A DNA stretch of 39,868 bases, taken from contig JAISUX010000002.1 in the NCBI GenBank assembly GCA_031271805.1, forward strand, positions 1-39,868. The letters run 5' to 3'. The notes beneath the pieces are model-generated. The model did not search any database, had not been told where the DNA came from, and saw nothing but the letters and a program-made list of their open reading frames with translations. Below are positions 1-19,805 of the stretch, in pieces (the first letter of the stretch is position 1; each line of letters starts with the position of its first letter). This stretch comes from Tannerella sp. (GTDB lineage: Bacteria > Bacteroidota > Bacteroidia > Bacteroidales > Tannerellaceae). Made by a program: the position numbers and the translations under genes.

Positions 1-302
1 CGACACCAGACGCCTACATAAATATATTTTTCGTCATAAAGCAGTTTAGCGCGGGTAGGGGAGGAGGAAGTGCGTCTTTCAAACGGTGTAACCTGCACGA
101 AATCCAAAGTAATATTACCTTGTTTAAGCCAGAAATCTTCATCAAGACGTCCGTCAATAACGGGCTTACTGCCATCAGTCCTGCTGATATTGTAAACCCT
201 CTTGTATGCCTTGTCGAAGGGGATGAGGGTGTCTTGCTGCGTCTGTTGCGCATAAGCCGAGATGAAGGCAAGGCAAAAAATTAACGAGCAAATATGTTTC
301 AT
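1..302 (-). CDS. Exported DUF5916/CBM9-like domain protein (N-terminal part only)
   Basis: The gene starts at 302 and runs off the left edge, so only about 100 residues are visible. It opens with a signal peptide (MKHICSLIFCLAFISAYAQ) and continues with a motif DGRLDEDFW near residue 51, then LLYDEKYIYVGVWC. This pattern, a mature N-terminus beginning a carbohydrate-binding-family-9-like beta-sandwich, is typical of the DUF5916 proteins of Bacteroidetes, large exported proteins whose C-terminal part is usually an outer-membrane-type barrel. Family assignment is from motif memory and the C-terminal part cannot be checked. The start lies 26 bases beyond the sufD stop, so it looks like the last gene of the rimP-suf operon visible here. 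Actual substrate is unknown. Confidence 0.75.
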   Translation of the reverse strand, partial: MKHICSLIFCLAFISAYAQQTQQDTLIPFDKAYKRVYNISRTDGSKPVIDGRLDEDFWLKQGNITLDFVQVTPFERRTSSSPTRAKLLYDEKYIYVGVWC

Positions 303-328
303 AGTAAAGTATGTATTATTTCGGAAAT

Positions 329-1672
329 TCATCGACCTACGCGGCAGTCGGCACATTGGGCAAGTTCGCCGCGAAAACGTTTCTCCACCAGATAGTGAAG
401 CCGGTCTTTAAGCGCATCGAGGCGGACATTTTCTATAACATCGGATGTAAATGCCACACTCAGTAGGATACGGGCTTCTTCGCGTGAGAGGCCGCGACTT
501 TGCATGTAAAATAGCGCCTGCTCGTCTAATTGGCCGGTAGTCATACCGTGAGTGCATTTGACATCGTCGGCATAGATCTCAAGCTGAGGTCTGCTGTAAG
601 CGCAAGCGTCGTTAGTCAAACAAAGGTTGCGGTTTGTTTGGCAAGCCTCGGTTTTCTCGGCGCCTTTTTCGACTAAAATACGTCCCGTGAAGATACCGAC
701 AGCCTTGTCGCGCAGCACGTTTTTGAAGAGTTCACGGCTGTGGCAACGGGGGACGGCATGGTCGATATGGGTGTAGGCGTCGATGTGTTGGTCGCGGTCG
801 AGTATCGACATGCCGCAGAGCGTAGTATCGGCGCCCTCTCCGGCAAGCGTGATGCGATAGTTATTGCGCGTGAGGCCGTTATTGAGGGTTATGCCGTCGA
901 TAAGGGTGTTCGACGCCGCCTCTTGACGGACATAGAGCGACGAGAAACGAGCTGTCGAGACGGAACTTTCTTCGAGGTCGTAATAATCGAAGGCGGCGCC
1001 CTCGCCTACAAAAATCTCAACTACCTGTGTTGCGAGGCAACGAATTTCGTCCATGGTATGGTCACAGACAAGAAGTTGCGCCTGAGAGCCGGGTTCCATT
1101 ATCACGAGGATACGGCGATTAGCCATAATATCCGCCGCACTCCGAAAGACATTCACCAACTGAATAGGCTTTTCAATGCGCACATTTTCAGGTACATACA
1201 GCACAAAGCCATCCTGTGCATACATAGTATTGAGGGCGGTAATAGAATCTTCGGATGTCTTGGCTATTTGGCCGTAGTATTTTGCCGCGATTTCGGGACA
1301 ATTTTCGGCGAAAGTTTTCAAACCGCCCACATAAACGCCTTTCGGAAACCTTGATGCGGGCAGGTTGTCATCGTTAAACGAGTCATTAATAATAAAAAAC
1401 AGCTGGGTACTCATATTAGGGACATCGCAACGAAAAACCTCCGCAGGGTTGAGCTGCGTCTTGTAGCGGTTGAAATTCACTCCGAAATCGGGTGCAAAAG
1501 CAGCGGCGACATCAGTCCTGCGATAATCCTCGTCTTTCAAAGTCGGGAAACCCTGTTTTTTGAAATCCATAAACGCCTGTTTACGCCGTCTATTCATACA
1601 TTCCGGGGCGTTCATGCAAATGACGTCTTCCAACTTCGCATAAAAATCTATGTATTGCCGCTCTACTTGCAT
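329..1672 (-). CDS. sufD: Fe-S cluster assembly protein SufD
   Basis: SufD is the scaffold partner of SufB in the SufBC2D complex, which assembles Fe-S clusters in the cytoplasm. The 447-residue product has the SufB/SufD beta-helix core and the C-terminal signature CTHGMTTGQLDEQALFYMQSRG, whose His near residue 375 corresponds to the functional His360 of E. coli SufD. The chosen ATG lies four bases after the sufC stop; an ATG further upstream (1696) would overlap sufC. The gene follows sufB and sufC directly. The usual next gene in Bacteroidetes, the cysteine desulfurase sufS, is absent; a DUF5916-type gene follows instead. Confidence 0.95.
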   Translation of the reverse strand: MQVERQYIDFYAKLEDVICMNAPECMNRRRKQAFMDFKKQGFPTLKDEDYRRTDVAAAFAPDFGVNFNRYKTQLNPAEVFRCDVPNMSTQLFFIINDSFNDDNLPASRFPKGVYVGGLKTFAENCPEIAAKYYGQIAKTSEDSITALNTMYAQDGFVLYVPENVRIEKPIQLVNVFRSAADIMANRRILVIMEPGSQAQLLVCDHTMDEIRCLATQVVEIFVGEGAAFDYYDLEESSVSTARFSSLYVRQEAASNTLIDGITLNNGLTRNNYRITLAGEGADTTLCGMSILDRDQHIDAYTHIDHAVPRCHSRELFKNVLRDKAVGIFTGRILVEKGAEKTEACQTNRNLCLTNDACAYSRPQLEIYADDVKCTHGMTTGQLDEQALFYMQSRGLSREEARILLSVAFTSDVIENVRLDALKDRLHYLVEKRFRGELAQCADCRVGR

Positions 1673-1676
1673 GTCT

Positions 1677-2417
1677 CTACTCACTAATCCATTCATATCC
1701 TTTTTTCTCGAGTTCGAGGGCAAGTTCCGGTCCGGCTGTTTTAATTATGCGACCTTTGTAAAGGACGTGCACAATGTCCGGCTTGATATAGTCGAGCAGA
1801 CGTTGATAGTGGGTTATGACTATCGTGGCATTGTCGGGGGTCTTGAGTTTGTTCACTCCATTGGCGACTACACGCAGGGCGTCGATATCAAGACCGCTGT
1901 CCGTCTCGTCGAGTATCGACAGCAGAGGTTCGAGCATGGCCATTTGGAATATTTCGTTTCGCTTCTTCTCGCCGCCCGAAAAGCCTTCGTTGACGCTGCG
2001 GCTCGTCAGTTTACTGTCCATTTCGACTATAGTCCGCTTTTCACGCATCATCTTGAGGAAGTCGGTCGCCGAAACAGGTTCATCTCCACGGTATTCGCGG
2101 TGGGCGTTGACGGCTGTGCGCATAAAATTGACCATACTAACTCCGGGAATCTCTACCGGATACTGAAAACTCAGGAAAAGCCCTTCGCGACTGCGATCTT
2201 CGGGCGAAAGAGCGAGCAAGTCACGCCCCTTGAACGTAACTGTCCCCTCCGTGACCTTGAAAACAGGATTTCCTATAAGCACACTGCTAAGGGTGCTTTT
2301 TCCCGAACCGTTAGGTCCCATGATAGCATGAACTTCACCCTTTTTGACAGTGAGATTTATCCCTTTCAATATTTCCTTATCCCCTATCGAAGCATGCAAA
2401 TTCTTAATTTCCAACAT
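1677..2417 (-). CDS. sufC: Fe-S cluster assembly ATPase SufC
   Basis: SufC is the ABC-type ATPase that drives conformational change in the SufBCD scaffold. The 246-residue product shows Walker A GPNGSGKS (residues 34-41), the signature FSGGEKKRNEI (146-156), and Walker B ending LDETDSG (169-175); the SGGEKKR form and ETDSG are typical of SufC rather than of transport ATPases. The start is placed at the ATG encoding MLEIKNL, preceded by GGATG seven bases upstream; an in-frame ATG 15 bases earlier (2432) is possible. It sits between sufB and sufD. Confidence 0.95.
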   Translation of the reverse strand: MLEIKNLHASIGDKEILKGINLTVKKGEVHAIMGPNGSGKSTLSSVLIGNPVFKVTEGTVTFKGRDLLALSPEDRSREGLFLSFQYPVEIPGVSMVNFMRTAVNAHREYRGDEPVSATDFLKMMREKRTIVEMDSKLTSRSVNEGFSGGEKKRNEIFQMAMLEPLLSILDETDSGLDIDALRVVANGVNKLKTPDNATIVITHYQRLLDYIKPDIVHVLYKGRIIKTAGPELALELEKKGYEWISE

Positions 2418-2443
2418 AATACATCCATTCAAATTTAAATATC

Positions 2444-3901
2444 CTATCCCACACTCCCTTCCAAAGAAATAGCCAACAGTTTTTGCGCCTCAACGGCAAA
2501 TTCCATCGGCAGCTTGTTCATCACCTCGCGGGCATAGCCGCCGACAATCAGGCTGACAGCCTTTTCGGTATCAATACCGCGCTGATTACAGTAAAGAAGC
2601 TGGTCTTCATTGATTTTCGAGGTCGTAGCCTCGTGTTCTATTATTGCGGTATCGTTTTGTATGTCGGCGTAAGGGAAGGTATGTGCGCCGCAGGTAGAGC
2701 TTAATAGCAGACTGTCGCACTGGCTGTGATTGCGGGCATTTTCGGCGTGAGGGCCGACCTTGACCAAGCCGCGGTAACTATTCTGGCTGTGGCCTGCCGA
2801 AATACCTTTCGAGACTATCGTGCTGCGCGTATTTCGGCCAAGATGCAGCATCTTCGTACCCGTATCGGCCTGCTGATAGTTGTTAGTCACAGCGACGGAA
2901 TAAAACTCTCCTACCGAATTATCGCCTGCGAGTATGCACGACGGGTATTTCCATGTTATCGCCGAGCCGGTCTCAACCTGCGTCCATGAGATTTTGCTGC
3001 CTTCGCCCTTGCAGAGGCCGCGTTTCGTGACGAAATTGTAAATGCCGCCCGCACCGTTCTTGTCACCGGGATACCAGTTCTGTACCGTCGAATATTTGAC
3101 TTCGGCATGATCCAAAGCGATGATTTCGACTATCGCCGCATGGAGCTGATTTTCATCACGTTGCGGAGCGGTACAGCCTTCGAGGTAACTGACATAGGCC
3201 TCGTCGTCCGCGATAAGAAGCGTCCGCTCGAACTGCCCCGTATTGGCGGCATTAATACGGAAATAAGTGCTCAATTCCATCGGACAACGCACGCCCTTAG
3301 GAATATAAGCGAAAGAGCCGTCGGAAAAGACCGCCGAATTGAGCGCCGCGAAATAATTGTCGCGATAACCGACGACATGCCCAAGATATTTCTGCACCAA
3401 GTCGGGATGATGCTTGACGGCTTCACTGAACGAACAGAAAATTATGCCCTTGTCGGCGAGCGTATCCTTGTATGTCGTCTTGACCGAAACGCTGTCCATC
3501 ACGGCATCAACAGCCATTCCACTCATTATTTTACGTTCATGAAGCGGGATACCCAGACGGTCGAAGGTCTTTAACAGTTCGGGATCAACCTCGTCCAAAC
3601 TTTTCGGCCTATCCTTCTTTTTAGGAGCAGCATAGTATATAATATCCTGATAATCAATAGGTGGAATATTGAGATGCGCCCATCGGGGCATTTCCATTGT
3701 TTGCCAATAGCGAAAAGCCTTAAGGCGGAAGTCGAGCAACCAGGCAGGCTCTTCCTTCTTCAATGAAATAGTGCGTATGATATCTTCGTCGAGGCCGCGC
3801 CTCAACATATCCGTCTCAACGTCGGAAGTAAAACCGTATTTGTATTCTCCCGACGTGACATCATTCAGTATATTTTCTTTCTCTTTATCCCTTTCATCCA
3901 T
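2444..3901 (-). CDS. sufB: Fe-S cluster assembly scaffold SufB
   Basis: SufB is the scaffold on which nascent Fe-S clusters form, within the cytoplasmic SufBC2D complex. The product is 485 residues, the normal length. Residues matching the E. coli functional set are visible: Cys243 ([14 protein letters not shown]), Cys395 (NHSQCDS, equivalent to Cys405) and Glu424 in EHEATTSK (equivalent to Glu434). The gene starts three bases from the cvpA stop and ends 26 bases before sufC, so it is read as part of the same operon as infB and nusA. No SufA, SufE or SufS gene is present in the window. Confidence 0.96.
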
Positions 3902-3904
3902 AAA

Positions 3905-4420
3905 CTACTCAATTTTCTTCTTCACCGCTTCCTGTATGGTTTGGAAGATATCTCCGGGGAAAACGGCGGGAATCATTTTTCGGACTTTATCGTAGTAACG
4001 CGATTCAACTTTCGTCTCCTGCGGGAGCACTTTCGACTTCTTGTCGAATATCTCTATCATATTGAAAACCAAGCTGATAAACAAAATAGTGATAAGCAAT
4101 CCTATCGCGCCGCCAATCAAGTGATTAATGAAACTCAAGGGTGTCACGCTGACGAGGCGATTCACAATCATGCCCGCCAACATTACTAAGCAAACGATGA
4201 GTAAAAACCCCAGCACATAACTGACGATAACATTTGCTTCCGGCGGTATCCATGTTAATTTAGCCAGATAAACGCTCAACTTTTCCGCCGCCCAGGTAGA
4301 AAAATAAATCCCGATAATAAAAGCGCCGAGAGATACAACCTGTTTTATCATGCCATCGACAATCCCTTTGATGAGGCCGATGCCGGCAAGAATCAAAATT
4401 GCAATATCCAACCAATTCAT
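3905..4420 (-). CDS. CvpA family membrane protein
   Basis: A 171-residue inner-membrane protein with about four hydrophobic segments (roughly 4-22, 26-48, 63-86 and 102-122) and a charged C-terminal tail. The opening NWLDIAIL, the glycine pattern GLIKGIVDGMIKQ and the following helix layout are characteristic of the CvpA (colicin V production) family. The molecular role of the family is not settled; it has been linked to envelope stress and growth. The gene lies 10 bases after infB and three bases before sufB, an order common in Bacteroidetes, so co-transcription is likely. Confidence 0.85.
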   Translation of the reverse strand: MNWLDIAILILAGIGLIKGIVDGMIKQVVSLGAFIIGIYFSTWAAEKLSVYLAKLTWIPPEANVIVSYVLGFLLIVCLVMLAGMIVNRLVSVTPLSFINHLIGGAIGLLITILFISLVFNMIEIFDKKSKVLPQETKVESRYYDKVRKMIPAVFPGDIFQTIQEAVKKKIE

Positions 4421-4430
4421 ATTAAATAGT

Positions 4431-7400
4431 TTATAGAGTTTTCTTTATCTCAATTTGGTCGAAAGGTTCAATAATATCGCCAATCTGGATATCATTGAAA
4501 TTGTTGATATAGATACCGCAGTCTTGCCCCATGACGGCTTCCTTGACTTCGTCCTTAAAACGTTTGAGCGAGCCAAGTTCGCCGGAATGAATGACGATAC
4601 CGTCGCGTATGAGGCGCACTTTGTTAGTGCGCTTTATCTTTCCTTCCTTGACGATACAGCCTGCGATTGTGCCGACTTTCGAAATCTTGAATACCTGCTG
4701 CACCTCAACTTCGCCGACAATATCTTCCCTGATTTCGGGCGACAACATGCCCTCCATAGCGTCTTTAACGTCGTTGATGGCATCATAAATAATTGAGTAT
4801 AAGCGTATTTCGACGCCATCATTATCTGCTAAGCGGCGAGCCGGTGTTGAAGGACGTACCTGGAAGCCGATAATAACCGCATGAGCGGCGGCGGCAAGCG
4901 AGATGTCGGATTCCGAAATCTGCCCCACGGCTTTATGTATCACATTGACCTGAATTTCAGGCGTTGACAGTTTGATGAGCGAATCGGAGATAGCCTCGAC
5001 GGAGCCGTCCACGTCGCCCTTTACAATGAGGTTGAGTTCGTGGAAATCGCCAAGCGCACGGCGGCGTCCGAGTTCTTCCAGACCGTAGCGCTTCTGTGTG
5101 CGGAGGTCTAACTCGCGCTGCAACTGTTCGCGACGCGATGCGATCTCACGCGCTTCCTGCTCCGTTTCGAGCACATTGAACGAATCGCCGGCCTGCGGAG
5201 CGCCGTCAAGTCCCAGAATAATAGCCGGTTCCGAAGGAGCAGCTTCCTTAATACGCTGATTACGTTCGTTAAACATAGCCTTGATACGTCCGTAATGCGT
5301 TCCGGCAAGCACGACGTCGCCCTGTTTAAGGGTGCCGTTGCTGACGAGGATAGTCGAAATAAATCCGCGCCCCTTGTCGAGCGACGATTCGATGATTGAC
5401 CCTACCGCACGACGGTTAGGATTAGCTTTGAGGTCAAGCATATCGGCTTCGAGCAGCACCTTTTCGAGCAATTCGGGCACGCCAATGCCCTGTTTGGCGG
5501 ATATTTCCTGACTTTGATACTTGCCGCCCCAATCTTCCACTATATAGTTCATGTTGGCAAGTTCGCGCTTGATCTTTTCCGGATCGGCATGAGGCTTATC
5601 TATCTTATTGATTGCGAATACAATAGGCACTCCGGCTGCCGAGGCGTGGTTAATAGCCTCGACGGTCTGCGGCATGACGCTATCGTCTGCGGCAACTATA
5701 ATTATCGCTATATCAGTTACTTGCGCTCCACGTGCACGCATAGCGGTAAACGCTTCGTGACCCGGCGTGTCGAGGAAAGTGATATGGCGACCACCCGGCA
5801 ACTTCACATTGTAAGCGCCGATATGCTGTGTGATGCCGCCTGCCTCGCCAGCAATGACGTTGGTATTGCGTATATTGTCGAGCAATGAAGTCTTACCATG
5901 GTCAACATGCCCCATAACGGTAATAATCGGCGGACGCGAAACCAAATCTTCGGTTTTATCCTCGACCTCGGCTATTGATTCGGACACATCCGCACTGACA
6001 TACTCAGTCGTGAAACCGAACTCTTCGGCCACAATATTGATCGTTTCCGCATCAAGACGCTGATTTATCGACACCATTATGCCGATACTCATACATGTTG
6101 AGATGACTTTCGTAACAGGAATATCCATCATGCTTGCAAGGTCATTGGCGGTCACGAACTCGGTAAGTTTCAGCACTTTGCTTTCGCGAGCCTCTGCTTC
6201 CATGTGTTCCTGTTCGCGGTGAGCGGCTAAGTCGCGCTTTTCCTTGCGATACTTCGCGCCTTTACCCTTCGTGGATTTATTCGTCAGCCGCGCCAACGTC
6301 TCCTTGACCTGCTTCTGCACATCGTCGTCGCTAATCTCCACGCGCAACGGACGCTTGACGCGATGCTGCTTCGGACTACGTTCCTCTCGACGGAAATTCG
6401 TACCCGGCGTATTACTTATATCTACTTTATCTTTGCGTATCCGTTTACGCGGCTTCTTACGCCCGCCTTCACTCGTATCGTTATCCCTGTCGTCAACCTG
6501 CACTTTGTGAGTTTTATTCAACTTACGCTGTTCTATTATTTTCTCACGCTTCTCATTCTCACGCTTCTCACGTTCGCGTCTCTTTTCTTCTTTTGACTTT
6601 TTACGTGGGCTTGTGGCTGGGTTTATCGAAGCGAGGTCTATCTCTCCTACGACCTTAAGTTTCAATTTAGGAGGGAGTTTATGGATTCTGAATACTTCAC
6701 CTTCCTGAGCTGTTCCATCGCTTTTAACAGGCTCTTTTTGAGATTTTTGCTTATCTTGCTTGTGCTCGGATTTTTGTTGCTTATTCTTTTTCAGGTCTTT
6801 GCGCTTCTGATCTTGACGTTCCGGACGATCCTGACGTTCTTGACGTTCAGGATGTTCCTGACGCTCAGTACGTTCAACAGCGGGTTGCTCATCAGGTTTT
6901 GTCTCTGTTGCCGCCTTTTGTTGAGGCTGTTCTTCAGCCGGCTCCTCTTTCTTTTGCGGCAACGGCTGTTCAACCGTCTGCTCCGGCTCGGTTTCCGCTT
7001 TTATCTCCGGTTGAGGCTCTTTACGAATCTCGGGTGCAACAACAGGAGCGTCTTCTTTTTCAACAACAACCGTTTCAACAACGGGAGTTGGTTCGGGAAC
7101 TACAACTTCCGGTTGTGTCGGCGTCGGCGCCACAACTTCAACCGGCTGCTGTTCAACTTCTTTCGGAACGACCTGTTCCTTGGCGACTGGTTTTTCCTTA
7201 TTATGGGATTTCGAATCCGAATGTTTCTTATCATGCTTAAACGACGAATGTTTCGACTTCGGCGACAATTCGTCAAGGTCAATCTTACCCTTTGTCACAA
7301 ACTTCGGCTTATCGACTTCGGACACCTCCACTCTGATAACCTCTTGTTCCTTGGGTTTGGGTTTCTTTGCCGAAGCATTAGCGGTATCCGGAGTTTTAAA

Positions 7401-9599: not shown

Positions 9600-10979
9600 T
9601 TATTTCAGAACTTTTATCTTGATATTTCGGTATGAAACTTCATCGCCGTGGTCTTGCAACAATATGTGACCTTTGGGCGCTTCACCGAAACGACCGTCTT
9701 TGTTATATGACGGAGCGGCATATTTACTACCCTTGACCAATTCGCGGAACGCATCAGAACCGCGCTCGTATTCAACCGTCTTGAAGCCGTTCAACCAATG
9801 CTCTACATGGTTGTTCGGGAAGACCTTGATGACAGCCTGGTTCCACTGCCCTACCCCATTGAACCGTATGTTCTCCGGTTTAATGAGGTCATAAAGTCCG
9901 GCGCAACGACGACTGCCCGGCACCGTCGTATATAATTTGGCGTCTGGATGAACCGCATCATCAAGAATTTGATACTCAAGCCCATAAGCCGAGCCTTTCT
10001 GCTTTTCACTCTCGGTCACGAAATATTTCACCCCACTGTTGGCTCCCTTGGTAATCTTGAACTCAAGACTTAGTTCAAAAGCCGAATATTCGTCATTAGT
10101 GACAATGTCGCCACCATTGGTCGATTCTCCGCCGTCGGATTTATTGACGGTGATTTCACCATTGCCGACTACCCAGCCCTTGTCGGGAAATGCGTCTTTG
10201 TGAGCGCCTCGCCAGCCGGCCGAAGTCTTGCCGTCGAACAGCAATTTCCAACCCTGAGCAGCCTCTACCGACGAAATAGTGTTGGGTATCATATTGATTT
10301 CAGGCGCCAAAGTCCCCTGCGTCATATTCGCACCAACGTTTTCCGTCAGGATACGAATATTTTTCCATCGTATCTCTTTTCCTTCATCCGCAAAATCTCC
10401 CCCAATCGAATGAACCTGGAAAGCAATAAACCCCTGGAGCGCCTCATTATCAAGCAGATTAGACGTATTAACTCCATTCAGCCAGATACGGATAGTGTCT
10501 CCCAAGGCTTCGATACGGTAATGATTCCAGTCGTCGCGTTTATAGGCTTTGCGCCCCGGCTCATTATCTACAAGCGTCACAAGCCAGCCACGGCGAGCTT
10601 CGTCATAAATCCCACCGCTCCATGCGCGGTCGGAAGGGTCTATTTCGCACTGATATCCGTGTACGCGCCCATTGTTATAATCCGGCGTACTCAAACTGCG
10701 AAACTGAACACCCGAATTAAGCGACGGATCACACAAAACATCAAACTCAAGAATAAAATCGCCGTAGGCCTTCTCGGTAGCTAAGAAGCTGTTAGGCTGG
10801 TCTCTAATCGTCTTACCGACAAGCTCGCCATTTTCAACCCTGAACGGCGCTTTACCGTTCAGCTGCTTGAACCCATTAAAATCCTTTCCGTTAAACAACT
10901 TCGTCCATCCGTCACCGGACGTACAGGCCGACAATACAAAAAGCAAGCAAACACATGTTGATCTCAATATAACTTTCAT
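9600..10979 (-). CDS. Lipoprotein with two DUF1080 (3-keto-disaccharide hydrolase-like) domains
   Basis: The 459-residue product starts with a lipoprotein signal whose lipobox is LSAC, so it is probably anchored in the envelope. Two concanavalin-like DUF1080 domains follow: the first (about 23-215) opens with GWTKLFNGKDFNGF and has GYQCEIDPS and GGIYDEARRGW; the second (about 238-459) opens with GWKLLFDGKTSAGW and has HVEHWLNGFKTVEYE and ILLQDHGDEVSYRNIKIK. Some DUF1080 proteins hydrolyse 3-keto-disaccharides; others may only bind sugars. The same two domain types occur in reverse order in the lipoprotein at 21957. The ATG at 10979 is chosen because the signal peptide starts there and a promoter lies 35-66 bases upstream. 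Confidence 0.88.
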   Translation of the reverse strand: MKVILRSTCVCLLFVLSACTSGDGWTKLFNGKDFNGFKQLNGKAPFRVENGELVGKTIRDQPNSFLATEKAYGDFILEFDVLCDPSLNSGVQFRSLSTPDYNNGRVHGYQCEIDPSDRAWSGGIYDEARRGWLVTLVDNEPGRKAYKRDDWNHYRIEALGDTIRIWLNGVNTSNLLDNEALQGFIAFQVHSIGGDFADEGKEIRWKNIRILTENVGANMTQGTLAPEINMIPNTISSVEAAQGWKLLFDGKTSAGWRGAHKDAFPDKGWVVGNGEITVNKSDGGESTNGGDIVTNDEYSAFELSLEFKITKGANSGVKYFVTESEKQKGSAYGLEYQILDDAVHPDAKLYTTVPGSRRCAGLYDLIKPENIRFNGVGQWNQAVIKVFPNNHVEHWLNGFKTVEYERGSDAFRELVKGSKYAAPSYNKDGRFGEAPKGHILLQDHGDEVSYRNIKIKVLK

Positions 10980-11013
10980 ACTATAAAATTTAATTAAACG
11001 TTTATTTTGCCCG

Positions 11014-11045
11014 CAAATATAATATTTTTTGTAAAATAAATCAAA
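11014..11045 (-). promoter_or_regulatory. Promoter of the DUF1080 lipoprotein gene
   Basis: On the minus strand, TTTG (11042-11045), a 20-base spacer and TATATTTG (11014-11021) match the Bacteroidetes promoter consensus. The -7 box lies about 35 bases before the ATG at 10979. Confidence 0.75.
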
Positions 11046-11060
11046 TAAAATCATCCTTTT

Positions 11061-11092
11061 TTTCTTATTTAAAAAAATTTCCATTATCTTTA
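11061..11092 (+). promoter_or_regulatory. Possible promoter of the kinase/FHA cluster
   Basis: TATCTTTA (11085-11092) matches the -7 consensus at all but the last base, and TTTC (11061-11064) lies 20 bases upstream as an imperfect -33. The implied start of transcription is near 11099, about 40 bases before the first kinase gene. It is weaker than the other promoters in the window and is back-to-back with the DUF1080 promoter. Confidence 0.4.
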
Positions 11093-11137
11093 CGCTCGAT
11101 TAATCAACGAAATGGAAAATAAAACGGTTAATAATAA

Positions 11138-12430
11138 ATGGATTACATGGGTTTAAGATGTGATTTTAACAACGGTGATTTGATCGACGACAGATATGTA
11201 GTCGAAGAAAAACTCGGTGAAGGCTCGTTCGGCCTCGTCTTTAAGGTCAAAGATGGGGATAATGGCGTCTTTGCATTAAAATTACTCAAACTATGGGAGG
11301 TATTTCCCAACGAACGGCAGTACCTTATCGAACGTTTCAAGATTGAGTACGAAGCAGGGCAGATTAAAAGCGACTATCTCGTACCGTCGTTCGCCTATGG
11401 CACGGTAAAAGACATTCCATATATCGTTATGGAATTTTGCCCTAACGGCGACGTAAAGAAACAATGTGAAAGACCTGATTTTGACCTGATAAAGACCTGC
11501 ACCGAGGTCTTGTACGGACTCTACGACCTGCACAGCAAAGGGATGGTACATCGCGACCTGAAACCGGAAAATATCCTCATAAAAAGCAATGGCGTCAACG
11601 CTCTCACCGATTTCGGTTTCACAGGCGACAAGAATCATCGCATCACCAAAAAGAATTTATTCGGCAAGCCGTTACAAATATTCGGCACATACGCATACAT
11701 GCCTCCGGAACAAAGCGATCCTGCCGGAAGCAACTCTACTATCTTACCTGCAACCGATATTTTTGCTTTCGGCGTCGTCCTTTATCGCCTGATAACCGGG
11801 GCTTTACCATTCGGACCGCTCAGGAAAGAGTCCGATATACCCGATTACGTCAACCGTGTCAAGAAAGGTGATTGGGACAAGAAAAAATTCAAGGAAAAGA
11901 ACAAATATCCTTATCTCGAAAACCTTATCGAAGGATGCTTTATACCAAAATACAAAGATCGGATACAGAGCGCCGCAGAAGCCCTGTCGTTTTTCCCGTT
12001 GAATCACAATTACATACTGTCCAGAAGCGACCGCCGATATCAAAAAGATGTGGTCAACGGCTTCCTCCTTCGCGTCATACAGGGAGAAGACGACGGAGCG
12101 GTTTACAAATTGAATGACATGCTTAAAGGAAAGGAAAATATCCTCACTGTCGGACGCCTCGAGCCGTATAATTCCAATTCGATTTCGATTACGGAAAATT
12201 TTAGCAATTTCATCTCAAGGAAGCACTGCACCTTGGAATGGGAATGGTTGTCAAATCGTTGGCGCATTAAGGACGGACAAAGCAGTAAACAAGCCACCGT
12301 CGAAACATGGAATAATTCCACTAACGGCACATACGTAAATACACAACATATTTCGTCCGCAGGAACGGCATTGCGCCCGGGCGACATCATATCAATCGGC
12401 AATGCAAGATTAAGAGTTGAGGGTTATTGA
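11138..12430 (+). CDS. Soluble Ser/Thr protein kinase with C-terminal FHA domain
   Basis: The 430-residue protein is a eukaryotic-like (Hanks-type) kinase followed by an FHA phosphothreonine-binding domain. Visible motifs: glycine loop GEGSFGLVF (27-35), catalytic Lys48 in FALKLL, HRDLKPEN (138-145), DFG (158-160), PPE (189-191). The FHA domain (about 330-430) has GR (339-340), SRKH (360-363) and NSTNGTYVN (393-401), all the conserved positions for phosphothreonine binding. No membrane segment is seen, so it should be cytoplasmic. It is the first gene of a six-gene cluster and precedes the FHA-like gene by 18 bases. A second ATG three codons in is possible. Substrates are unknown; the membrane kinase of the same cluster is a candidate partner. 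Confidence 0.92.
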   Translation: MDYMGLRCDFNNGDLIDDRYVVEEKLGEGSFGLVFKVKDGDNGVFALKLLKLWEVFPNERQYLIERFKIEYEAGQIKSDYLVPSFAYGTVKDIPYIVMEFCPNGDVKKQCERPDFDLIKTCTEVLYGLYDLHSKGMVHRDLKPENILIKSNGVNALTDFGFTGDKNHRITKKNLFGKPLQIFGTYAYMPPEQSDPAGSNSTILPATDIFAFGVVLYRLITGALPFGPLRKESDIPDYVNRVKKGDWDKKKFKEKNKYPYLENLIEGCFIPKYKDRIQSAAEALSFFPLNHNYILSRSDRRYQKDVVNGFLLRVIQGEDDGAVYKLNDMLKGKENILTVGRLEPYNSNSISITENFSNFISRKHCTLEWEWLSNRWRIKDGQSSKQATVETWNNSTNGTYVNTQHISSAGTALRPGDIISIGNARLRVEGY

Positions 12431-12448
12431 TTTAATAATTAAGCAGTT

Positions 12449-13012
12449 ATGGAACAGGAAGAAGATAAATTCATATACTCTATCAAAGGGTCAATAGGAT
12501 CCGGCCTGAAGGCGCTACTCAACAGTTCTAATAAACCGTACTATATCTTAGAACAGAGGTCGAGTACCAAATACTACAGGGCAGGCAAGATGCACGCTAT
12601 TCTGGTTGACGAATTGCTCATAGGAAGTGACTCTAAATGCTCAATGCGTTATATTAATAATAAAAAGTTCACTATGATCGACGCCATACAGTCGGCCATT
12701 GTCAGAAGCGACGACGGATGGAAATATATCCGGATGTCGAAACAATACTCGACTTTCGTAAACGGCCAAAGAGTCGAAACGGAACACAAATTGGAGAACG
12801 GAGATCAGATTGCGGTGGCCCAGGATGGGCCTTACATCGGTTTCCACATACCCACCGGCAGGAAAGCGGAGCTGAAAAGCATCAGCCTGTCGAACCGCTT
12901 AGCCTTGTTCGGCTGGCAAGCGCTACGCCCATACAGAACGGCCTTAATAATATCGTCGATTCTGCTTATTTTGATTATTGCAGTAATTTTATGGTTAATA
13001 ATTAGTAATTAA
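12449..13012 (+). CDS. Tail-anchored FHA-like protein
   Basis: The 187-residue product has an FHA-like core (about 50-140) with LLIGSDSKCSMRY, AIQSAIVRSDDGWKYIR and STFVNGQRVETEHKLENGDQI. These resemble the GR, SxxH and NG strands of FHA domains, but the usual SRxH and N-NG residues are mostly missing (QSAIVR and STFVNG instead), so phosphothreonine binding is doubtful. One hydrophobic segment at the extreme C-terminus (about 164-185, followed by SN) suggests a tail anchor with the FHA part in the cytoplasm. It lies four bases before the second kinase gene. A structural adaptor at the membrane is a reasonable inference. Confidence 0.75.
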   Translation: MEQEEDKFIYSIKGSIGSGLKALLNSSNKPYYILEQRSSTKYYRAGKMHAILVDELLIGSDSKCSMRYINNKKFTMIDAIQSAIVRSDDGWKYIRMSKQYSTFVNGQRVETEHKLENGDQIAVAQDGPYIGFHIPTGRKAELKSISLSNRLALFGWQALRPYRTALIISSILLILIIAVILWLIISN

Positions 13013-13016
13013 TGTT

Positions 13017-14375
13017 ATGAGGCTCGAAGAAAACGCAATATTTGCCGAACGATACAAACTTATGGAATGTAAAGGCAAGGGAGGCTCGTCGGAAGTATGG
13101 CTCGCCCGCGATGAGAGCGTCATGATGTTTGTCGCCCTGAAAATATATTCCGAAGATGCAAGAATAGAACAAGATATGATTGATTTTTTCCGAAATGAAT
13201 TTAAACTCGTTTACGGCCTCAATCACGAAAATGTTCTGCCGCCCACTTCTTTCGACATCTATGAAAGTATGCCTTATCTCGTCATGAAATTTTGCAAGAA
13301 CGGCTCGAGCCTCAGCCTGAAAAATAAAATGACCGAAGCCGACGCATGGAAATTCCTTCACGATGTCGCTTCGGGCTTGGATTACCTTTGGGACCATTCG
13401 ATAATCCATAAAGACATCAAACCCGATAACGTACTTATCGACGACAACGGATCGTTTCTAATCAGCGATTTCGGAATTAGCAGCAGCATAAGATCAACAA
13501 TTAAAAAGAGTGAATCCGAGCTTAACAACGATTTCTTAACCGCCCCTTACGCTTCTCCGGAACGTTACCAGAGAGTTAGTCTTCCCGCAGGTGATATATG
13601 GAGTATGGGAGCTTCTGTTTATGAGCTGCTTACCGGTTATTTTCCATTCGGAGGCAACGGCGGACAAATTCAGGATAAAAACACAAAAATCCCGAAATTA
13701 GACGGCCAATGGTCGTCCAAGTTAAAAAGGATGATACGCAAATGCCTTGCATATAAACCGTCGGACAGGCCTAACGCTGCCGCTATCAAAATAATTGCGG
13801 AAAAATACATGAAGAAATGCCCGAAGCCATTCAATTTCAGCGCTTTCGCCTTAAGATTTATTGTAATTGCATTAGTCTTGGCTCCGTGCCTGCTTTTCTT
13901 TATCAGAAATAAGGAGCCTCAGAATCCGCCCGAACCACTACCTGCGGATACAATCAAAATCCAACAGGACGAACAGGTTGAGAACAACGACACCGTAAGC
14001 CGGGCGTCAACAGACACCCCCATTAATGAATCTGTAGAAAAACCGGCAGAAAAGCCTGTGGTCAAACCTCAAAAGAGCGCCGATGAATACTTGGCCGAAG
14101 GCAATTCCTTCTTCAACAGGGGACAATACAAAGAGGCTATCGACTGCTACAAGCGCTATCTCGAACTTTCCGGCAATAACAATCCTTCTATCCGGCAAAG
14201 GATTAAGACTGCCGAAACGAGTATTCCCATCCGGGAAAAAGCCGATTTGCTTTACAACGAAGGGAAATACGCCGAGGCCAAAGCCGAATACATGAAAATA
14301 TTTAACAGTGCGGATACATTTCTCAAAGAGAGATTAAGAGCATGCGACGAACAAATAAAACGGCAAAACGAATGA
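13017..14375 (+). CDS. Transmembrane Ser/Thr protein kinase with extracytoplasmic TPR-like region
   Basis: The 452-residue protein has an N-terminal kinase domain (about 10-265): glycine-rich loop GKGGSSEVWLA (20-30), Lys42 in VALKIY, HKDIKPDN (131-138; HKD replaces the usual HRD), DFG (151-153) and SPE (180-182). One membrane segment (about 277-296) follows, then a Pro-rich linker (300-350) and TPR-like helices (about 354-445) with AEGNSFFNRGQYKEAIDCYK and LLYNEGKYAEAKAEYMKIF. By the positive-inside rule the kinase faces the cytoplasm and the TPR part the periplasm, an arrangement reminiscent of sensor kinases of the PknB type. Its TGA stop overlaps the next ATG (ATGA). Confidence 0.9.
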   Translation: MRLEENAIFAERYKLMECKGKGGSSEVWLARDESVMMFVALKIYSEDARIEQDMIDFFRNEFKLVYGLNHENVLPPTSFDIYESMPYLVMKFCKNGSSLSLKNKMTEADAWKFLHDVASGLDYLWDHSIIHKDIKPDNVLIDDNGSFLISDFGISSSIRSTIKKSESELNNDFLTAPYASPERYQRVSLPAGDIWSMGASVYELLTGYFPFGGNGGQIQDKNTKIPKLDGQWSSKLKRMIRKCLAYKPSDRPNAAAIKIIAEKYMKKCPKPFNFSAFALRFIVIALVLAPCLLFFIRNKEPQNPPEPLPADTIKIQQDEQVENNDTVSRASTDTPINESVEKPAEKPVVKPQKSADEYLAEGNSFFNRGQYKEAIDCYKRYLELSGNNNPSIRQRIKTAETSIPIREKADLLYNEGKYAEAKAEYMKIFNSADTFLKERLRACDEQIKRQNE

Positions 14376-14890
14376 ACGGAGAACATACATACAGGTTTTT
14401 GTTATTTGCGACGCTTATAGCCTTGCTAAGCGCTTTCGCATCGTCGCAAGAAGTCGTTATCTCGCCTTCCGACAGCCGCTTCAACAAAAAGATTGCCGAC
14501 GAAAATCTTACCGATTCGTTAAGCAATTTCAAATGCTCAAACAGCGCCTTTGCGGATAGCACATACAACGCCCTGTTCGACAAATATACTTCATCCGACA
14601 ACATCGTCCTCGACATTAAACACCTCAGATACGGCCTCGAGCCGCCAATTATAAGCATCCCGATGAAAGACTTCTTTTGCATGTTTAAGGATGACTTCAA
14701 CCTGTTCTGTAACATACGCGACGAAGATGACGACAACATCAAAATCACGATAATCCTTCAGCATAAGATTCACCCCTTCATACACATGCTTCTCGTAGAA
14801 ACGACTAAGGAGGCGTTTGAAAAAGGGGAAGATAATATCAAGTCCGATTTCTATTCTTACATTCCGCAACATACATTCATTAATAATTAA
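14372..14890 (+). CDS. Exported protein of unknown family in the kinase cluster
   Basis: I do not recognise this family. The 172-residue product has a hydrophobic N-terminal segment (about 7-24) ending ASSQ, consistent with a cleaved signal peptide. The mature part is rich in Asp, Ile and Phe, without cysteine pairs or repeats that suggest a function. The ATG at 14372 overlaps the kinase stop as ATGA, which sets the start, and translational coupling to the kinase is likely. It lies four bases before the next exported-protein gene. Periplasmic location is inferred from the signal peptide only. Confidence 0.7.
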   Translation: MNGEHTYRFLLFATLIALLSAFASSQEVVISPSDSRFNKKIADENLTDSLSNFKCSNSAFADSTYNALFDKYTSSDNIVLDIKHLRYGLEPPIISIPMKDFFCMFKDDFNLFCNIRDEDDDNIKITIILQHKIHPFIHMLLVETTKEAFEKGEDNIKSDFYSYIPQHTFINN

Positions 14891-14894
14891 AGAT

Positions 14895-15878
14895 ATGAGA
14901 GATACGAAATTTTACTTTTTGACGCTTGTCTGTTTGACACTCGCTTTCAGCGCCGTCGGGGCGCAACGCGACAGTGTTGACGTCAGGATTGCTTTCGGCA
15001 GCAGCGACGACTATCTTAAAGCTAAGATGGAATCTAATGCCTCAACACTTCTGACTATCCTAAAAAACGCCGCGCACGACAAAAAAGAACCTAAATTCCC
15101 CGACAACATCATGACTGAAGATACGGAGATGAAAATCAAGGAGATGTGGAAGTCAAGCCGTATAGAATGTATATACAACGAAATACGGACTAACTGTCTT
15201 AATACTTCTTACGGCGACTTGCAAATCCGCAATATTCCGGTGATCTTCACTGCCGCTTCGGAGGAGACTAAAAACGAAGAGATTTCCCTGAATTTCAACA
15301 AACAGGGACTTATTAACGATATAAACATCACGATAAAACTTCACCAGTACGAAAGCATTTTCGGCAACAGCGAGGTGGTCGAGGATATCGTGAACCGCAA
15401 TAAGATACTTGACTTTATCGAGAAGTTCCGCACTGCTTATAATTGCAAGGATATCGAATATCTCGAAAACGTTTATAGCAATAACGCGCTGATTATAAAT
15501 GCAGTAGAAAGGAAAATCCGGCAGATTCCCAATTCCGACCAGCCACTGAAAAGTCTCGGAGAGAAACAATACGATTTCCAGGTCAAGTCGAAGGCCGAAT
15601 ACATAGCAGCTCTTAAAAAGGTCTTCAAGAAAAATTCTTTCATTAATATCATCTTCGACTCTATTGAAGTGCTCGAACATCCGGGCTTCGAGAACATCTA
15701 CGGCGTCACCCTCAAACAGCATTGGAACTCCGAATCCTACAATGATGTGGGATATTTGTACCTTTTAATTGATTGCACTAAGGAATACGAAATGCAGGTT
15801 TTCGTCCGCGCCTGGTCGCCCGATCAACTCTTCGATTTCAACTCTTTTGGCGATATTAAATTTCATGACTCAAAATAA
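14895..15878 (+). CDS. Exported protein with C-terminal NTF2/SnoaL-like domain
   Basis: The 327-residue product has a signal peptide (about 1-23, ending SAVGAQ). An N-terminal region (about 25-155) of unknown fold is followed by a stretch (about 165-310) with ILDFIEKFRTAYNCKDIEYLENVYSNNALI, YIAALKKVFKKN and YGVTLKQHWNSESYNDVGYLYLLIDC. The helix-then-cone-sheet pattern resembles NTF2/SnoaL-like domains found in many exported Bacteroidetes proteins. Such domains bind ligands or partners and are rarely enzymes when the pocket residues are unclear. The ATG at 14895 is chosen because it starts the signal peptide and lies four bases after the preceding stop. Confidence 0.7.
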   Translation: MRDTKFYFLTLVCLTLAFSAVGAQRDSVDVRIAFGSSDDYLKAKMESNASTLLTILKNAAHDKKEPKFPDNIMTEDTEMKIKEMWKSSRIECIYNEIRTNCLNTSYGDLQIRNIPVIFTAASEETKNEEISLNFNKQGLINDINITIKLHQYESIFGNSEVVEDIVNRNKILDFIEKFRTAYNCKDIEYLENVYSNNALIINAVERKIRQIPNSDQPLKSLGEKQYDFQVKSKAEYIAALKKVFKKNSFINIIFDSIEVLEHPGFENIYGVTLKQHWNSESYNDVGYLYLLIDCTKEYEMQVFVRAWSPDQLFDFNSFGDIKFHDSK

Positions 15879-15879
15879 T

Positions 15880-16953
15880 ATGAAAAAAATTATTCTTTTA
15901 TTCGCGATTTTAATTGCAAGCCATGCGGCGGCATACGCACAGCATCTGGAAGCAAAAAAAATGCCCGATCTTATTGCCTACAACGGCCAGGGCAAGTATG
16001 GTATCATAGTGATTATCGCCCATAATTCGTTTGTTTTAACTTTTTCCACAAGTTTAGACGGGCCAAGGGGTTCGCAAATTATCAAGCAGGAAACAAGGCA
16101 AATCGGGATTCAAACCGAGTACACGCTCACATTCGACGCAGCTAAGACAAAAGGCGCTACGTTGAGAATCGAAGAACCGAACCATGTACTGCTGACTATT
16201 CCTATCGGGTTGTCACCTAACGAGGCTGTCAAATACCTTGTTGACGACCCCGAATACGAGGATTCCAAACCTTGCCACCGCAAGCACATAATCCTCGGAG
16301 ACAGGTTTTTCGCGAAGTCCGAATACGAAATGGCGAAGTTTGAGTACGAGAACTCCCTCAAATGCTGGCCTGAAGACGAAAGTGATGTAGAGATAAATAA
16401 TAAAATCAGCGATACGGATAAAAAAATCCGGGAATTAACGATGTTTGATGACGAAAATAATGTCAATAATTTTGCCATTCCGGAAAAACGTTCTGCTTTG
16501 TTAACACGGTTTCGTGTGATTTCCTACGAATTTGAAATCGACGCTTCCATAGGACTTGCCTTCGGAATATACAAGGACAAATTTGGAGAATACGGTTCGA
16601 TAAGAATAAGTCCCGATGTTTTCTCGTTTCTCGCGACCAAAGGCAAGAGCCGACGGTCGGAATACAACCTGACAGGAGGCATAACTTATCCTTTAATCAA
16701 GATTGACGGCAAAGATCGTATTTGGGCTTACGGAGGCTTAGGCCTCACCGCTCTCGACGTAACCGTCGAAGGGGCGTTAAAAACGCAATTTGCCGTTTCG
16801 CCGGAAATCGGCGCAATGCTCAAAATACCTGTAGGAGGCAAGGATATGATCGCCTTGAAATATACGTTGCAGTACCGCAATAGCGTCAAGGATTCCTATT
16901 CGGTTTACTTCGGCGTAATAAGAAGTATCGTAGGAATAGGATTTTGCTTTTAA
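15880..16953 (+). CDS. Exported TPR-like / probable outer-membrane beta-barrel protein
   Basis: The 357-residue product starts with a signal peptide (cleavage near AYA-Q, residue 20). A beta-rich N-terminal part (about 25-125, possibly PEGA-like) is followed by a TPR-like helical part (about 133-190, GDRFFAKSEYEMAKFEYENSLKCWPEDE) that resembles the TPR-like segment of the membrane kinase two genes upstream. From about 200 to the end, alternating beta strands end in the terminal Phe (GIGFCF) typical of outer-membrane barrels. The ATG lies one base after the preceding stop; another at 15865 is possible. It is the last gene of the cluster and ends 10 bases from the uvrA stop. Confidence 0.65.
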   Translation: MKKIILLFAILIASHAAAYAQHLEAKKMPDLIAYNGQGKYGIIVIIAHNSFVLTFSTSLDGPRGSQIIKQETRQIGIQTEYTLTFDAAKTKGATLRIEEPNHVLLTIPIGLSPNEAVKYLVDDPEYEDSKPCHRKHIILGDRFFAKSEYEMAKFEYENSLKCWPEDESDVEINNKISDTDKKIRELTMFDDENNVNNFAIPEKRSALLTRFRVISYEFEIDASIGLAFGIYKDKFGEYGSIRISPDVFSFLATKGKSRRSEYNLTGGITYPLIKIDGKDRIWAYGGLGLTALDVTVEGALKTQFAVSPEIGAMLKIPVGGKDMIALKYTLQYRNSVKDSYSVYFGVIRSIVGIGFCF

Positions 16954-16963
16954 AATCAAATCC

Positions 16964-19774
16964 TTACGTTAATTTGTTTTTTAGAAATTTGCCGGTATAA
17001 GAATCCTCGCAGGCGGCAATGTCGGCCGGTTTGCCGGCGCAGACAAGGTACCCGCCATCCTTGCCGCTTTCGGGGCCAAGGTCAATGACGTAATCGGCGC
17101 ATTTGATGACATCCGGATGATGCTCGATAATGACTACCGTATGACCATTGTCGATAAGTGCGTTGAAGGCCTTCAGCAAGGTTTTTATGTCATGAAAATG
17201 CAAGCCTGTCGTCGGCTCGTCGAAAACGAATATGGTGTTTTCCTGCTTTTCCTGACCGAGGTAATAAGCCAGCTTAACACGTTGATTTTCACCACCTGAA
17301 AGCGTAGAAGACGTCTGTCCGAGTTTGATATATCCAAGCCCGACATCCTGCAAAGGCATCAGGCGACTGACTATCTTCTTGGCTTGCGCATCCTTAGGCT
17401 TGTTGAAAAATTCAATTGCCTGATTAACAGTCATTTCGAGCACATCGTAGATATTAGCGTCATTATATTCGACTTCGAGGACGTCGGCATTGAAACGCTT
17501 GCCGTGGCAAACCTCACATTCGAGTGTGATGTCGGCCATGAACTGCATCTCGACGGTAATCTTTCCCTCGCCTTTGCACTCCTCACAACGGCCTCCCTCC
17601 TTGTTGAACGAGAAATAGGCCGGGTTGTAGCCCATTTGCTTCGCTAAAGGCAATTCGGCAAACAGTTTGCGTATCTCGTCGTAGGCGCCGATATATGTCA
17701 CCGGATTTGATCGCGAACTCTTACCTATCGAGTTCTGATCGACGAACTCAATGGCATGAACCATGTGGGTATCACCGGTTATCGAATTACAATCGACCGA
17801 CAGCGGAGCATTGTCGAGGATTCTTTTCATCCCCTCGTAGAAGATGTCCCTGACCAACGAACTCTTTCCCGAACCGCTGACACCCGTCACAACCGTCATT
17901 ACGTGCAACGGAAACTTAACATCAATGCGCTTGAGATTGTTCTTCCGTGCGCCTTTTACCTCGATGTACTGATTCCATTTACGTGTATAAGCCGGTACTT
18001 CGATTTGCTCTTTGCCGGTAAGGTAGCGGACGGTATAACTCTTGCCATTAGCCTGCATATCAGCCACTTCTCCCTGATAGACGATTTCCCCTCCGAGACG
18101 TCCTGCGTCTGGGCCAACGTCTATGATATAGTCTGCTGCACGAATTATTTCCTCGTCATGTTCAACAACTACAACGGTATTGCCCATGGCTTGCAGCTGT
18201 TTCAACACCGATATCAGCTTGTCGGTGTCGCGCGGGTGCAACCCTATGCTTGGCTCATCGAGGATATATAGCGAACCTACGAGGCTGCTTCCCAACGATG
18301 TGGCAAGGCTAATGCGCTGACTTTCACCACCTGACAGGGTCGATGACAGACGATCTAACGACAGGTAACCCAAGCCGACATCGAACAGAAATTTAAGTCT
18401 GTTACGTATCTCTACAAGCAGTCGCTTGGAAATCGCCGCATCCATTTCGCTCAATTCAAGCGTCTCGAAGAAATGTATCAATTCGCTGATAGGCATGGAT
18501 ACCAACTCGGAGATGTTATGCCCGCCTATCTTCACATACATAGCCGTTGTTTTCAGTCGCCCGCCCTTGCATACGGGACATGTCGTTTTGCCGCGATAGC
18601 GCGCGTACATGACCCGAAATTGTATCTTGTAAAGGTTTCTCTCGACATACCCGAAGAAGTCGTCAATCCCGCTCACATCTTCGGTGCCGTGCCACAACAA
18701 GTCTTTTTCCTGTTCGTTCAGATCGAAATAAGGCCTGTGAATAGGAAAATCGTATTTTGCCGCCGAAATGATAAAATCCTTGAGCCATTCGCTCATCATC
18801 TCGCCTTTCCAGCACACGACGGCGCCATCATAGACCGAGAGGCCTTTGTTGGGAATAACAAGGTTCTCGTCAATGCCGTGCACTTTCCCGAAACCTTCGC
18901 ATTTCGGGCAGGCGCCTATGGGGTTGTTGAAATTGAACATCATGTCGGACGGCTCTTCAAATGTTATCCCGTCAGCCTCGAAACGCTTGGAAAAATTGAA
19001 TATCAGAGGAGATTTTTCGCTTTCGGAAAGGAATATTTTCAGGCGGCAGACATCGTGTCCCTCGAAAAAAGCTGTCTCGACAGAGTCGGCTAAGCGATTC
19101 TTCAACAACTTATCGTCAGAGACGGCCATCCTGTCGATAAGTATCTCTATATCAGCCGAATCAAGTAGTTTTTTATTAGTGAGGACATCTTGTATGCGAT
19201 AGATTTCACCGTCGATTTCCAAGCGTGTGTATCCTTCCTTCAGGAGTATTTCAAGTTGTTTCCCGACCGTCCTGTCTTCGGGCACAACGAGAGGCGCATA
19301 TACGGCAAAGCGTGTACCGACGGGATATGACAGGGCTTGTTCAACCACGTCGGCAGTGTGATGTTTTTTGACTTCCAATCCCGAAACGGGCGAGATCGTC
19401 TTACCCACACGAGAGAAAAGGAGGCGCATGTATTCGTAAATCTCCGTCGAGGTGCCTACCGTCGAGCGCGGATTACGGACGCTGACTTTCTGTTCTATCG
19501 CTATTGCGGGAGGTATTCCTTTTATGTAGTCGCACTCCGGTTTGCTCATGCGTCCGAGGAACTGGCGAGCGTACGACGAGAGGCTCTCGACATAACGGCG
19601 TTGTCCTTCGGCATAGAGGGTGTCGAAGGCTAACGACGATTTCCCGCTTCCCGACAAGCCCGTGATGACGACAAACTTGTCTCGCGGTATCCGTACATCA
19701 ACATTTTTCAAGTTGTTCACACGGGCACCTTTCACAAGAATGTACCCATCTTCGTTATCTTTGGGGAAACTCAT
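16964..19774 (-). CDS. uvrA: Excinuclease ABC subunit A (UvrA)
   Basis: UvrA recognises bulky DNA damage and loads UvrB in nucleotide excision repair. The 936-residue product has the duplicated ABC architecture: first Walker [10 protein letters not shown] (about 39-47), the zinc module [21 protein letters not shown] signature [12 protein letters not shown], second Walker [10 protein letters not shown], zinc module [10 protein letters not shown]...CEVCHGKRF, and second signature [12 protein letters not shown]. The length is normal for UvrA. The ATG at 19774 is preferred; a TTG four codons upstream is also open. It has its own promoter and is divergent from the ferritin gene. No uvrB is nearby. 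Confidence 0.97.
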
Positions 19775-19805
19775 TTTTAATCTCAATAAACAATCAAATA
19801 CGGGG

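Follow-up and report, generated by a model that had tools for sequence, protein, structure and literature searches.

A cluster of six genes, named A to F in the following, was analysed in a 39,868-nucleotide stretch of Tannerella sp. DNA (assembly GCA_031271805.1, contig JAISUX010000002.1, positions 1 to 39,868 of the forward strand), which is referred to as the window. With a probability of roughly 55%, the cluster represents a rapidly changing, reduced version of a Ser/Thr-phosphorylation operon of patchy occurrence in the Bacteroidales, most likely co-transcribed with an independent module of three genes for exported proteins (D-E-F). The domain make-up of the cluster, its losses and the recurrence of D-E-F elsewhere can be read from the sequence. 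Loci are labelled with L and genomes with G, G000 being the window's own genome. The six genes are (TM, transmembrane; aa, amino acids):

11138..12430, plus strand: A, cytoplasmic Ser/Thr kinase with C-terminal FHA domain (Pfam Pkinase 20-281, FHA 337-421)
12449..13012, plus strand: B, FHA domain and C-terminal TM helix, 187 aa (Pfam FHA 58-122, TM 167-185)
13017..14375, plus strand: C, membrane Ser/Thr kinase with extracytoplasmic TPR (Pfam Pkinase 17-257, TPR_2 355-388, TM 278-296)
14372..14890, plus strand: D, exported, short form of 172 aa (alignment with 11 relatives)
14895..15878, plus strand: E, exported, N-terminal domain without assigned family and C-terminal NTF2-like domain (model, Cds6_C)
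15880..16953, plus strand: F, exported, with strands, TPR-like helices and a predicted C-terminal outer-membrane-type barrel, last residue Phe (model)

All six genes start with ATG and are spaced by 18, 4, -4, 4 and 1 bases (coordinates include the stop codons), and the genes on both flanks (9600-11084 and 16964-19786) lie on the minus strand. The initial annotation, made from the sequence alone, had described this row, and the coordinates confirm its spacings. It had also described A as a cytoplasmic kinase joined to an FHA domain and C as a membrane kinase with an extracytoplasmic TPR-like part, which agrees with the Pfam matches, the intact FHA pocket of A and the single TM helix of C. Likewise, the proposed export of D and E and the barrel of F were supported by signal-like starts and by the match of the F model to outer-membrane barrels, and the gene order does run from the cytoplasm to the outer membrane. 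The FHA match of B is weak (25.9 bits, cut-off 20.7), as is the NTF2-like match of E to Cds6_C (28.5 bits, cut-off 27), and D and F showed zero Pfam matches. Hydropathy gave a single TM helix each in B (167-185) and C (278-296) and signal-like N-termini for D, E and F. For each of the six genes the own frame had the best coding score of the six frames. In a column comparison, K48, D140, D158, R340, S360, H363 and N396 of A matched at least 83 of 86 other rows, so that both the kinase catalytic residues and the phosphothreonine-pocket residues of its FHA domain are intact. The lysine and both catalytic aspartates of C (K42, D133, D151) are kept as well.

For the comparison with related operons, the best 80 of 148 A relatives from 160 pattern stretches in named species genomes were kept. 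All frames were read in 89 loci with A (window included, three duplicates removed), of which 80 hold at least 1 kb upstream and 67 at least 7 kb downstream of A; these two sets serve as denominators. The recurrent order is a zinc-ribbon-FHA gene, A, B, an exported protein labelled x5, PP2C, C and variable exported genes, with an extra FHA protein between PP2C and C in some loci. Of the 80 loci, 79 have the zinc-ribbon-FHA gene upstream of A. Downstream of A, C is present in 66 of the 67 loci, B in 64, PP2C in 62 and x5 in 38. In the few relatives analysed by Pfam, B comprises an FHA and a trypsin-like domain, with a TM helix between both in L037, C comprises a kinase and TPR, and the PP2C gene is confirmed by its Pfam match. 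Trypsin or Trypsin_2 was matched in full-length B of L037, L036, L034, L073, L074 and L059. Of 84 full-length B rows, 48 showed the strict trypsin serine pattern. Three of the rows lacking this pattern were inspected; two showed a near variant and one had no serine. Catalytic competence of the protease may accordingly not extend to the entire B family.

All of D, E and F were present in 4 of the 67 loci. The order A-B-C-D-E-F is shared by the window with L037, L033 and L074, all of which carry PP2C between B and C and two of which (L037, L074) additionally carry x5 there. Since this order recurs in three other loci, it is not due to chance, and A to F form a real co-inherited unit. Thus, the co-occurrence in other genomes, on which the initial annotation had let the idea of a system depend, was found.

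The distribution of A is patchy. It was found in 8 of 295 order genomes (E<=1e-80) and in 2 of 247 phylum genomes (1e-60), the own genome being included in both counts. Within the genus, 6 of 37 members contain full-length A (own, G001, G015, G017, G019 and G036), and among 61 genomes searched, again counting the own genome, full-length A was restricted to the genus. G006 contains a fragment located at the edge of a contig. Three copies are present in G036, and G017 has three full-length copies and two contig-edge fragments that may be one gene. In G052, which belongs to another family, A lies in two frames (L036, 16346-17631). The relatives stem mostly from Bacteroidales, with record titles that include Prevotella, Bacteroides faecis (L117, a gut commensal), Odoribacter laneus, Barnesiella, Parabacteroides and Muribaculaceae. 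L092 and L148 stem from records titled Clostridia, yet lie amid Bacteroidales in the A tree, which points to mislabelled bins or transfer. A search of viral contigs gave 6 pattern stretches, none of which was a relative. Compared to full-length relatives, the window A showed an identity of 44-55%.

Against this background, the window copy lacks several parts. It is the only one of 80 loci without a zinc-ribbon match upstream of A, and it contains neither x5 nor PP2C. PP2C is missing in five of the 67 loci (window, L035, L078, L085 and L103). The absence of PP2C noted in the initial annotation is therefore true of the cluster, but it represents a derived loss and not a defining trait, since 62 of the 67 related loci have the gene. 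Window B stops two residues past the TM helix, so that the protease part is gone, and of its FHA pocket residues R, S and H are changed to S, D and Q, with only N kept. R, S and H are present in all 85 other B rows, including another short B (L032, 185 aa), in which the pocket is kept. By sequence, B is a truncated remnant of an FHA-TM-protease and probably dead as a phospho-reader. The earlier description of B as a tail-anchored FHA-like protein thus holds for its FHA domain and C-terminal TM helix, but misses the truncation and the lost pocket. Due to this loss, the initially suggested phospho-relay to an FHA reader is unlikely with B as the reader, and probably wrong in this form for the window copy.

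The remaining parts also show departures: the window differs at 18 of 149 strongly conserved columns in A and at 9 of 53 in C. In the A tree (88 rows) it stands beside L073 and L074 with a support of 91/93, just below the star level of the tool, and has the longest end branch (1.47 compared to a median of 0.27). This very long branch makes the placement tentative. The FHA-protease form of B, x5 and PP2C are retained in both L073 and L074, and D-E-F in L074 as well; the zinc-ribbon gene is present in L073, and L074 holds only a matching frame of 68 aa. Since these parts are retained there, the losses probably occurred mainly on the window's own branch. The pairwise identities single out the window for A (50-52%, the other loci sharing 56-68% with each other) and for B (40-42% compared to 62-72%), and slightly for the C kinase (44-48% compared to 50-54%). 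For D, E and F the window is not an outlier; E showed 56.7% identity between window and L037 and 45.9% between L037 and L074. Altogether, full-length A and a downstream C were found, and an intact FHA-TM-protease B, PP2C and an upstream zinc-ribbon-FHA gene were not. Judged by these comparisons, the window copy is a reduced member of the kinase-FHA/PP2C/FHA-protease operon by descent and an incomplete operon. This designation is introduced here, since a published name was not found among the matches listed.

E, the query for the exported part, recurs across Bacteroidota. Scans of 295 order genomes gave 34 matches at 1e-5 and scans of 395 phylum genomes 22 at 1e-20, both including the own genome, and 9 members of one family gave 3. 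In total, 36 loci with an E of less than 420 aa were read, comprising the window, 4 loci of the kinase set and another 31 that came from the E scans (13 within the order and 18 outside, with several genomes contributing two or three). D was recognised in 22 of the 36. Its relatives mostly comprise 350-411 aa, and the short form of the window also occurs in L074. Many of the 31 loci contain an extra exported gene between D and E, which is not present in the window, L033, L037 and L074. The window shows the order, the signal-like starts and the F with an outer-membrane-type barrel that mark D-E-F. Based on these loci, D-E-F constitutes a Bacteroidota module in its own right, which is also present where the operon's kinases are absent.

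The operon's C kinase lies upstream in 5 of the 36 loci (window, L033, L037, L074 and L145). Other upstream partners are another kinase (L192), TIR proteins (L193, L195) and Tubulin_2 proteins (L189, L190, L194), corresponding to 6 of the 31 E-scan loci, or 6 of the 13 within the order and none of the 18 outside. In all six, a gene for a TM protein with a MORN-like part immediately precedes D, or E in L195, in which D was not seen; such TM proteins thereby occupy the place of C. The 4-base overlap of C and D in the window has a counterpart in L193, where D overlaps the TIR gene to the same extent. In the E tree, window, L037, L074 and L033 group together (93/80) and L145 groups with L192 (100/97), which indicates at least two origins or exchanges of the kinase link; E of L195 is very divergent.

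Some further observations were made at these loci. The TIR-TM-MORN genes directly before D or E are located at 11978-12952 in L193 and 11629-12435 in L195, and no paper on a TIR domain with MORN repeats in Bacteroidetes was found among the matches listed in the open-licence literature. The Tubulin_2 proteins comprise 1024-1058 aa (L189 5419-8493, L190 6230-9406, L194 5521-8610), with a small Cys-rich TM-MORN protein between Tubulin_2 and D-E in each. In L249 the MORN-like part belongs to a protein whose start resembles that of a lipoprotein. L185, L186, L188 and L252 carry an exported protein upstream, which is TPR/Sel1-like in L185 by Pfam and in the others by similarity of the start. In L197-L200 the C-terminal domain of E follows a different exported N-terminal part in proteins of 438-624 aa, and neither D nor F was recognised near these genes.

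Structures were predicted for E and F. The E model (23 rows) reached a predicted local distance difference score (pLDDT) of 86.1 and a predicted template modelling score (pTM) of 0.81, and its C-terminal part is NTF2-like. Compared to the PDB, it matched NTF2-like folds, with Bd1075 (7o21) as the best hit (E 7e-6). The NTF2 domain of Bd1075 is required for positioning at the convex cell face (PMC8938487). The likeness, an NTF2-like domain in a cell-envelope protein, is an analogy only and concerns just this domain; no carboxypeptidase domain was recognised in E. For F (10 rows) the pLDDT was 79.8 and the pTM 0.40, so that the domain arrangement is not reliable. The C-terminal strands matched the N-domain of OprF (E 1.1e-4) and the barrels of NspA, Ail and OmpA, which supports the prediction that F ends in an 8-strand outer-membrane barrel.

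If the preferred reading is right, D, E and F would form an assembly in the periplasm and outer membrane, anchored via the F barrel, and C would act as transducer across the inner membrane, with a periplasmic TPR part and a cytoplasmic kinase part. A may amplify or distribute the signal as a cytoplasmic kinase, docking by its own FHA domain on phosphothreonines produced by A or C. B, no longer reading phosphothreonine, could be retained for membrane anchoring or as a binding partner, and resetting in the absence of an operon PP2C might occur via a PP2C encoded on another contig, C82, or by dilution. In complete operons, the FHA-TM-protease form of B suggests that cytoplasmic threonine phosphorylation would gate a periplasmic protease, i.e. 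that the protease is controlled from inside. The window copy can be regarded as a natural experiment, according to which reader pocket, protease, phosphatase and zinc-ribbon partner can be lost together.

The occurrence of D-E-F beside differing signalling proteins hints at an envelope device with exchangeable inner parts. TIR proteins usually act as responders, and the direction of signalling is assumed for this reason. We put forward, as a tentative and on the whole rather doubtful extension, that D-E-F is a conserved Bacteroidota envelope receptor, which would signal events at the outer membrane or cell wall to an exchangeable responder in the cytoplasm. It is equally tentative that the responders would be the operon's kinases (in the window group and separately in L145), another kinase, TIR or tubulin-like proteins, linked by the single-TM protein before D. 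If true, a common outer-membrane 'ear' would take immune-type as well as signalling effectors, the window being one combination in which the phospho-reader side is being rebuilt. The pairings with TIR, kinase and tubulin-like partners offer a concrete handle on the possible route from an outer-membrane event to cytoplasmic effectors.

Several points weigh against the preferred reading. Of the 31 E-scan loci, 25 showed no recognisable kinase, TIR or tubulin partner, with five of those 25 holding less than 3 kb upstream and most neighbours judged by our own profiles and by eye; D-E-F can therefore exist without such a partner. The MORN-like tail of the C kinases in L033 (7.8e-5) and L145 (1.9e-5) is weak, originating from a 5-row profile, and Pfam detected no MORN in these two kinases. 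Since the outer part of C in the window, L037 and L074 is TPR and not MORN, its equivalence to the linkers of the swapped loci is one of place. For the short D, no domain was recognised. Finally, the single transcript of A to F, although most likely, is a prediction from the gene spacing.

The contig C82 bears on the rival explanations. Its positions 1-5065 (G000:C82, L059) encode Sel1, a B of 517 aa with FHA and trypsin-like domains, x5, a PP2C and a second x5. The PP2C belongs to the operon family (54% identity to the PP2C of L037; Pfam PP2C). The Sel1 frame runs past the contig start, so that the 5' part may hold kinases of its own, comparable to the gene order in L077 or L098. It is possible, if somewhat less probable than the opposite, that the window cluster depends on C82 for a PP2C and a full B provided in trans, so that both loci form a split phosphorylation network. 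This would fit its gene content and the open contig start; a second A and a zinc-ribbon gene were not found in G000, but the assembly is 86% complete and the zinc-ribbon search was made without a positive control. The same contig, with its intact B, x5 and PP2C, would also fit a decaying relic, in which the function of A-B-C is lost, these genes are on their way out and D-E-F alone still matters. The loss of three genes and the protease part, the change of all three key residues in the B pocket and the position of A and B as the fastest-evolving parts point in this direction. However, all six frames are open, tightly spaced and best in their own coding score, and the catalytic residues of A and C as well as the FHA pocket of A are intact, which makes decay an unlikely explanation.

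An accidental joining of two unrelated units on one transcript is more unlikely still. None of the 31 other E-scan loci adjoins the operon's kinases, and D-E-F mostly occurs without them, as would be expected from an accident; yet E joined the operon's C kinase twice separately, once in the window, L037, L074 and L033 (93/80) and once in L145 (with L192, 100/97), and D-E-F is also joined to TIR, another kinase and tubulin-like genes. Least probable, and in our view very improbable, is a toxic kinase pair serving defence in the manner of the kinase-kinase-phosphatase (KKP) module of Pf prophages (PMC11341870). According to the accessible part of this source, KKP combines PfkB, a kinase-FHA protein, with a second kinase PfkA and the PP2C PfpC, which resembles A with its C-terminal FHA, C as a second kinase and the PP2C in most relatives' operons; the patchy distribution of A, with several copies per genome, would fit as well. 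In contrast to PfkA with its cold-shock domain, C comprises a TM helix and a periplasmic TPR, the lack of PP2C in the cluster would leave a KKP toxin unguarded, and the exported and outer-membrane genes D-E-F have no counterpart in the KKP module as described there. Membership was rejected, as no cold-shock domain was found in C (Pfam E<=1) and no PP2C is adjacent.

Other known systems were compared as well. C shares the kinase domain, a single TM helix and extracytoplasmic repeats with receptor kinases of the PknB/Stk1 type. It was rejected as a PASTA kinase, since Pfam found no PASTA match in C and TPR instead, and the NF033483 score was 145.9 at a cut-off of 450. The threonine-phosphorylation pathway of the type VI secretion system (PpkA/PppA/Fha, TagK) likewise combines kinase, FHA and PP2C, the latter in the window's relatives only, but the protease and D-E-F have no place in it. 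B scored 15.8 against the TagK profile (cut-off 200), and structural genes of this secretion system were not searched for. In the available text on GTPase/tubulin conflict systems (PMC7159879), tubulin-like proteins, zinc ribbons and TM proteins with extracytoplasmic PEGA or NTF2 are described, which resembles D-E-F beside Tubulin_2 in three loci; unlike the systems in that text, the window has no GTPase, GAP1 or tubulin, and the same text contains zero occurrences of MORN or outer membrane. Membership of the window was rejected, as GTPase, MoxR and STAND-type NTPase were not matched in the six proteins (Pfam E<=1). A TCAD9 match inside the C kinase domain was sub-threshold (E 0.11, 12.1 bits, cut-off 40). 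Antiphage families were rejected too, since the PADLOC matches of A and C (mad6, PD-T4-6) are confined to the kinase domains; B, D, E and F gave zero PADLOC matches at E<=0.1.

In Actinobacteria and Firmicutes, much is established on Ser/Thr kinases, PP2C phosphatases and FHA readers. The initial annotation knew of no described system of this composition, and neither the kinase-FHA operon nor D-E-F was found described among the matches listed in the open-licence literature; the full Bacteroidales phosphorylation operon is apparently undescribed.

A single further feature was noted upstream of the cluster:

10976..11137, plus strand: intergenic stretch 5' of A, with TATCTTTA at 11085 (weak evidence)

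The Bacteroidota -7 box has the consensus TAnnTTTG, from which this motif is one base off. The promoter scan listed no plus-strand sigma-70-type site in this stretch. The sigma-70 scan (8 sites compared to 11.7 in shuffles) and the terminator scan (3 compared to 7.1) both stayed below the shuffles.

Two minor observations concern the related operons. A phospho-switch like that of GarA/OdhI was considered for the zinc-ribbon-FHA protein, a gene missing in the window, and was not adopted, as the loose motif in 41 of 85 rows is suggestive at most. A MotA/ExbB-type gene was located inside the operon in 5 of the 67 loci (L036, L089, L098, L111 and L133; Pfam on L036 only), with a coiled-coil single-TM partner beside it in four of the five, and these operons perhaps represent an ion-driven version.

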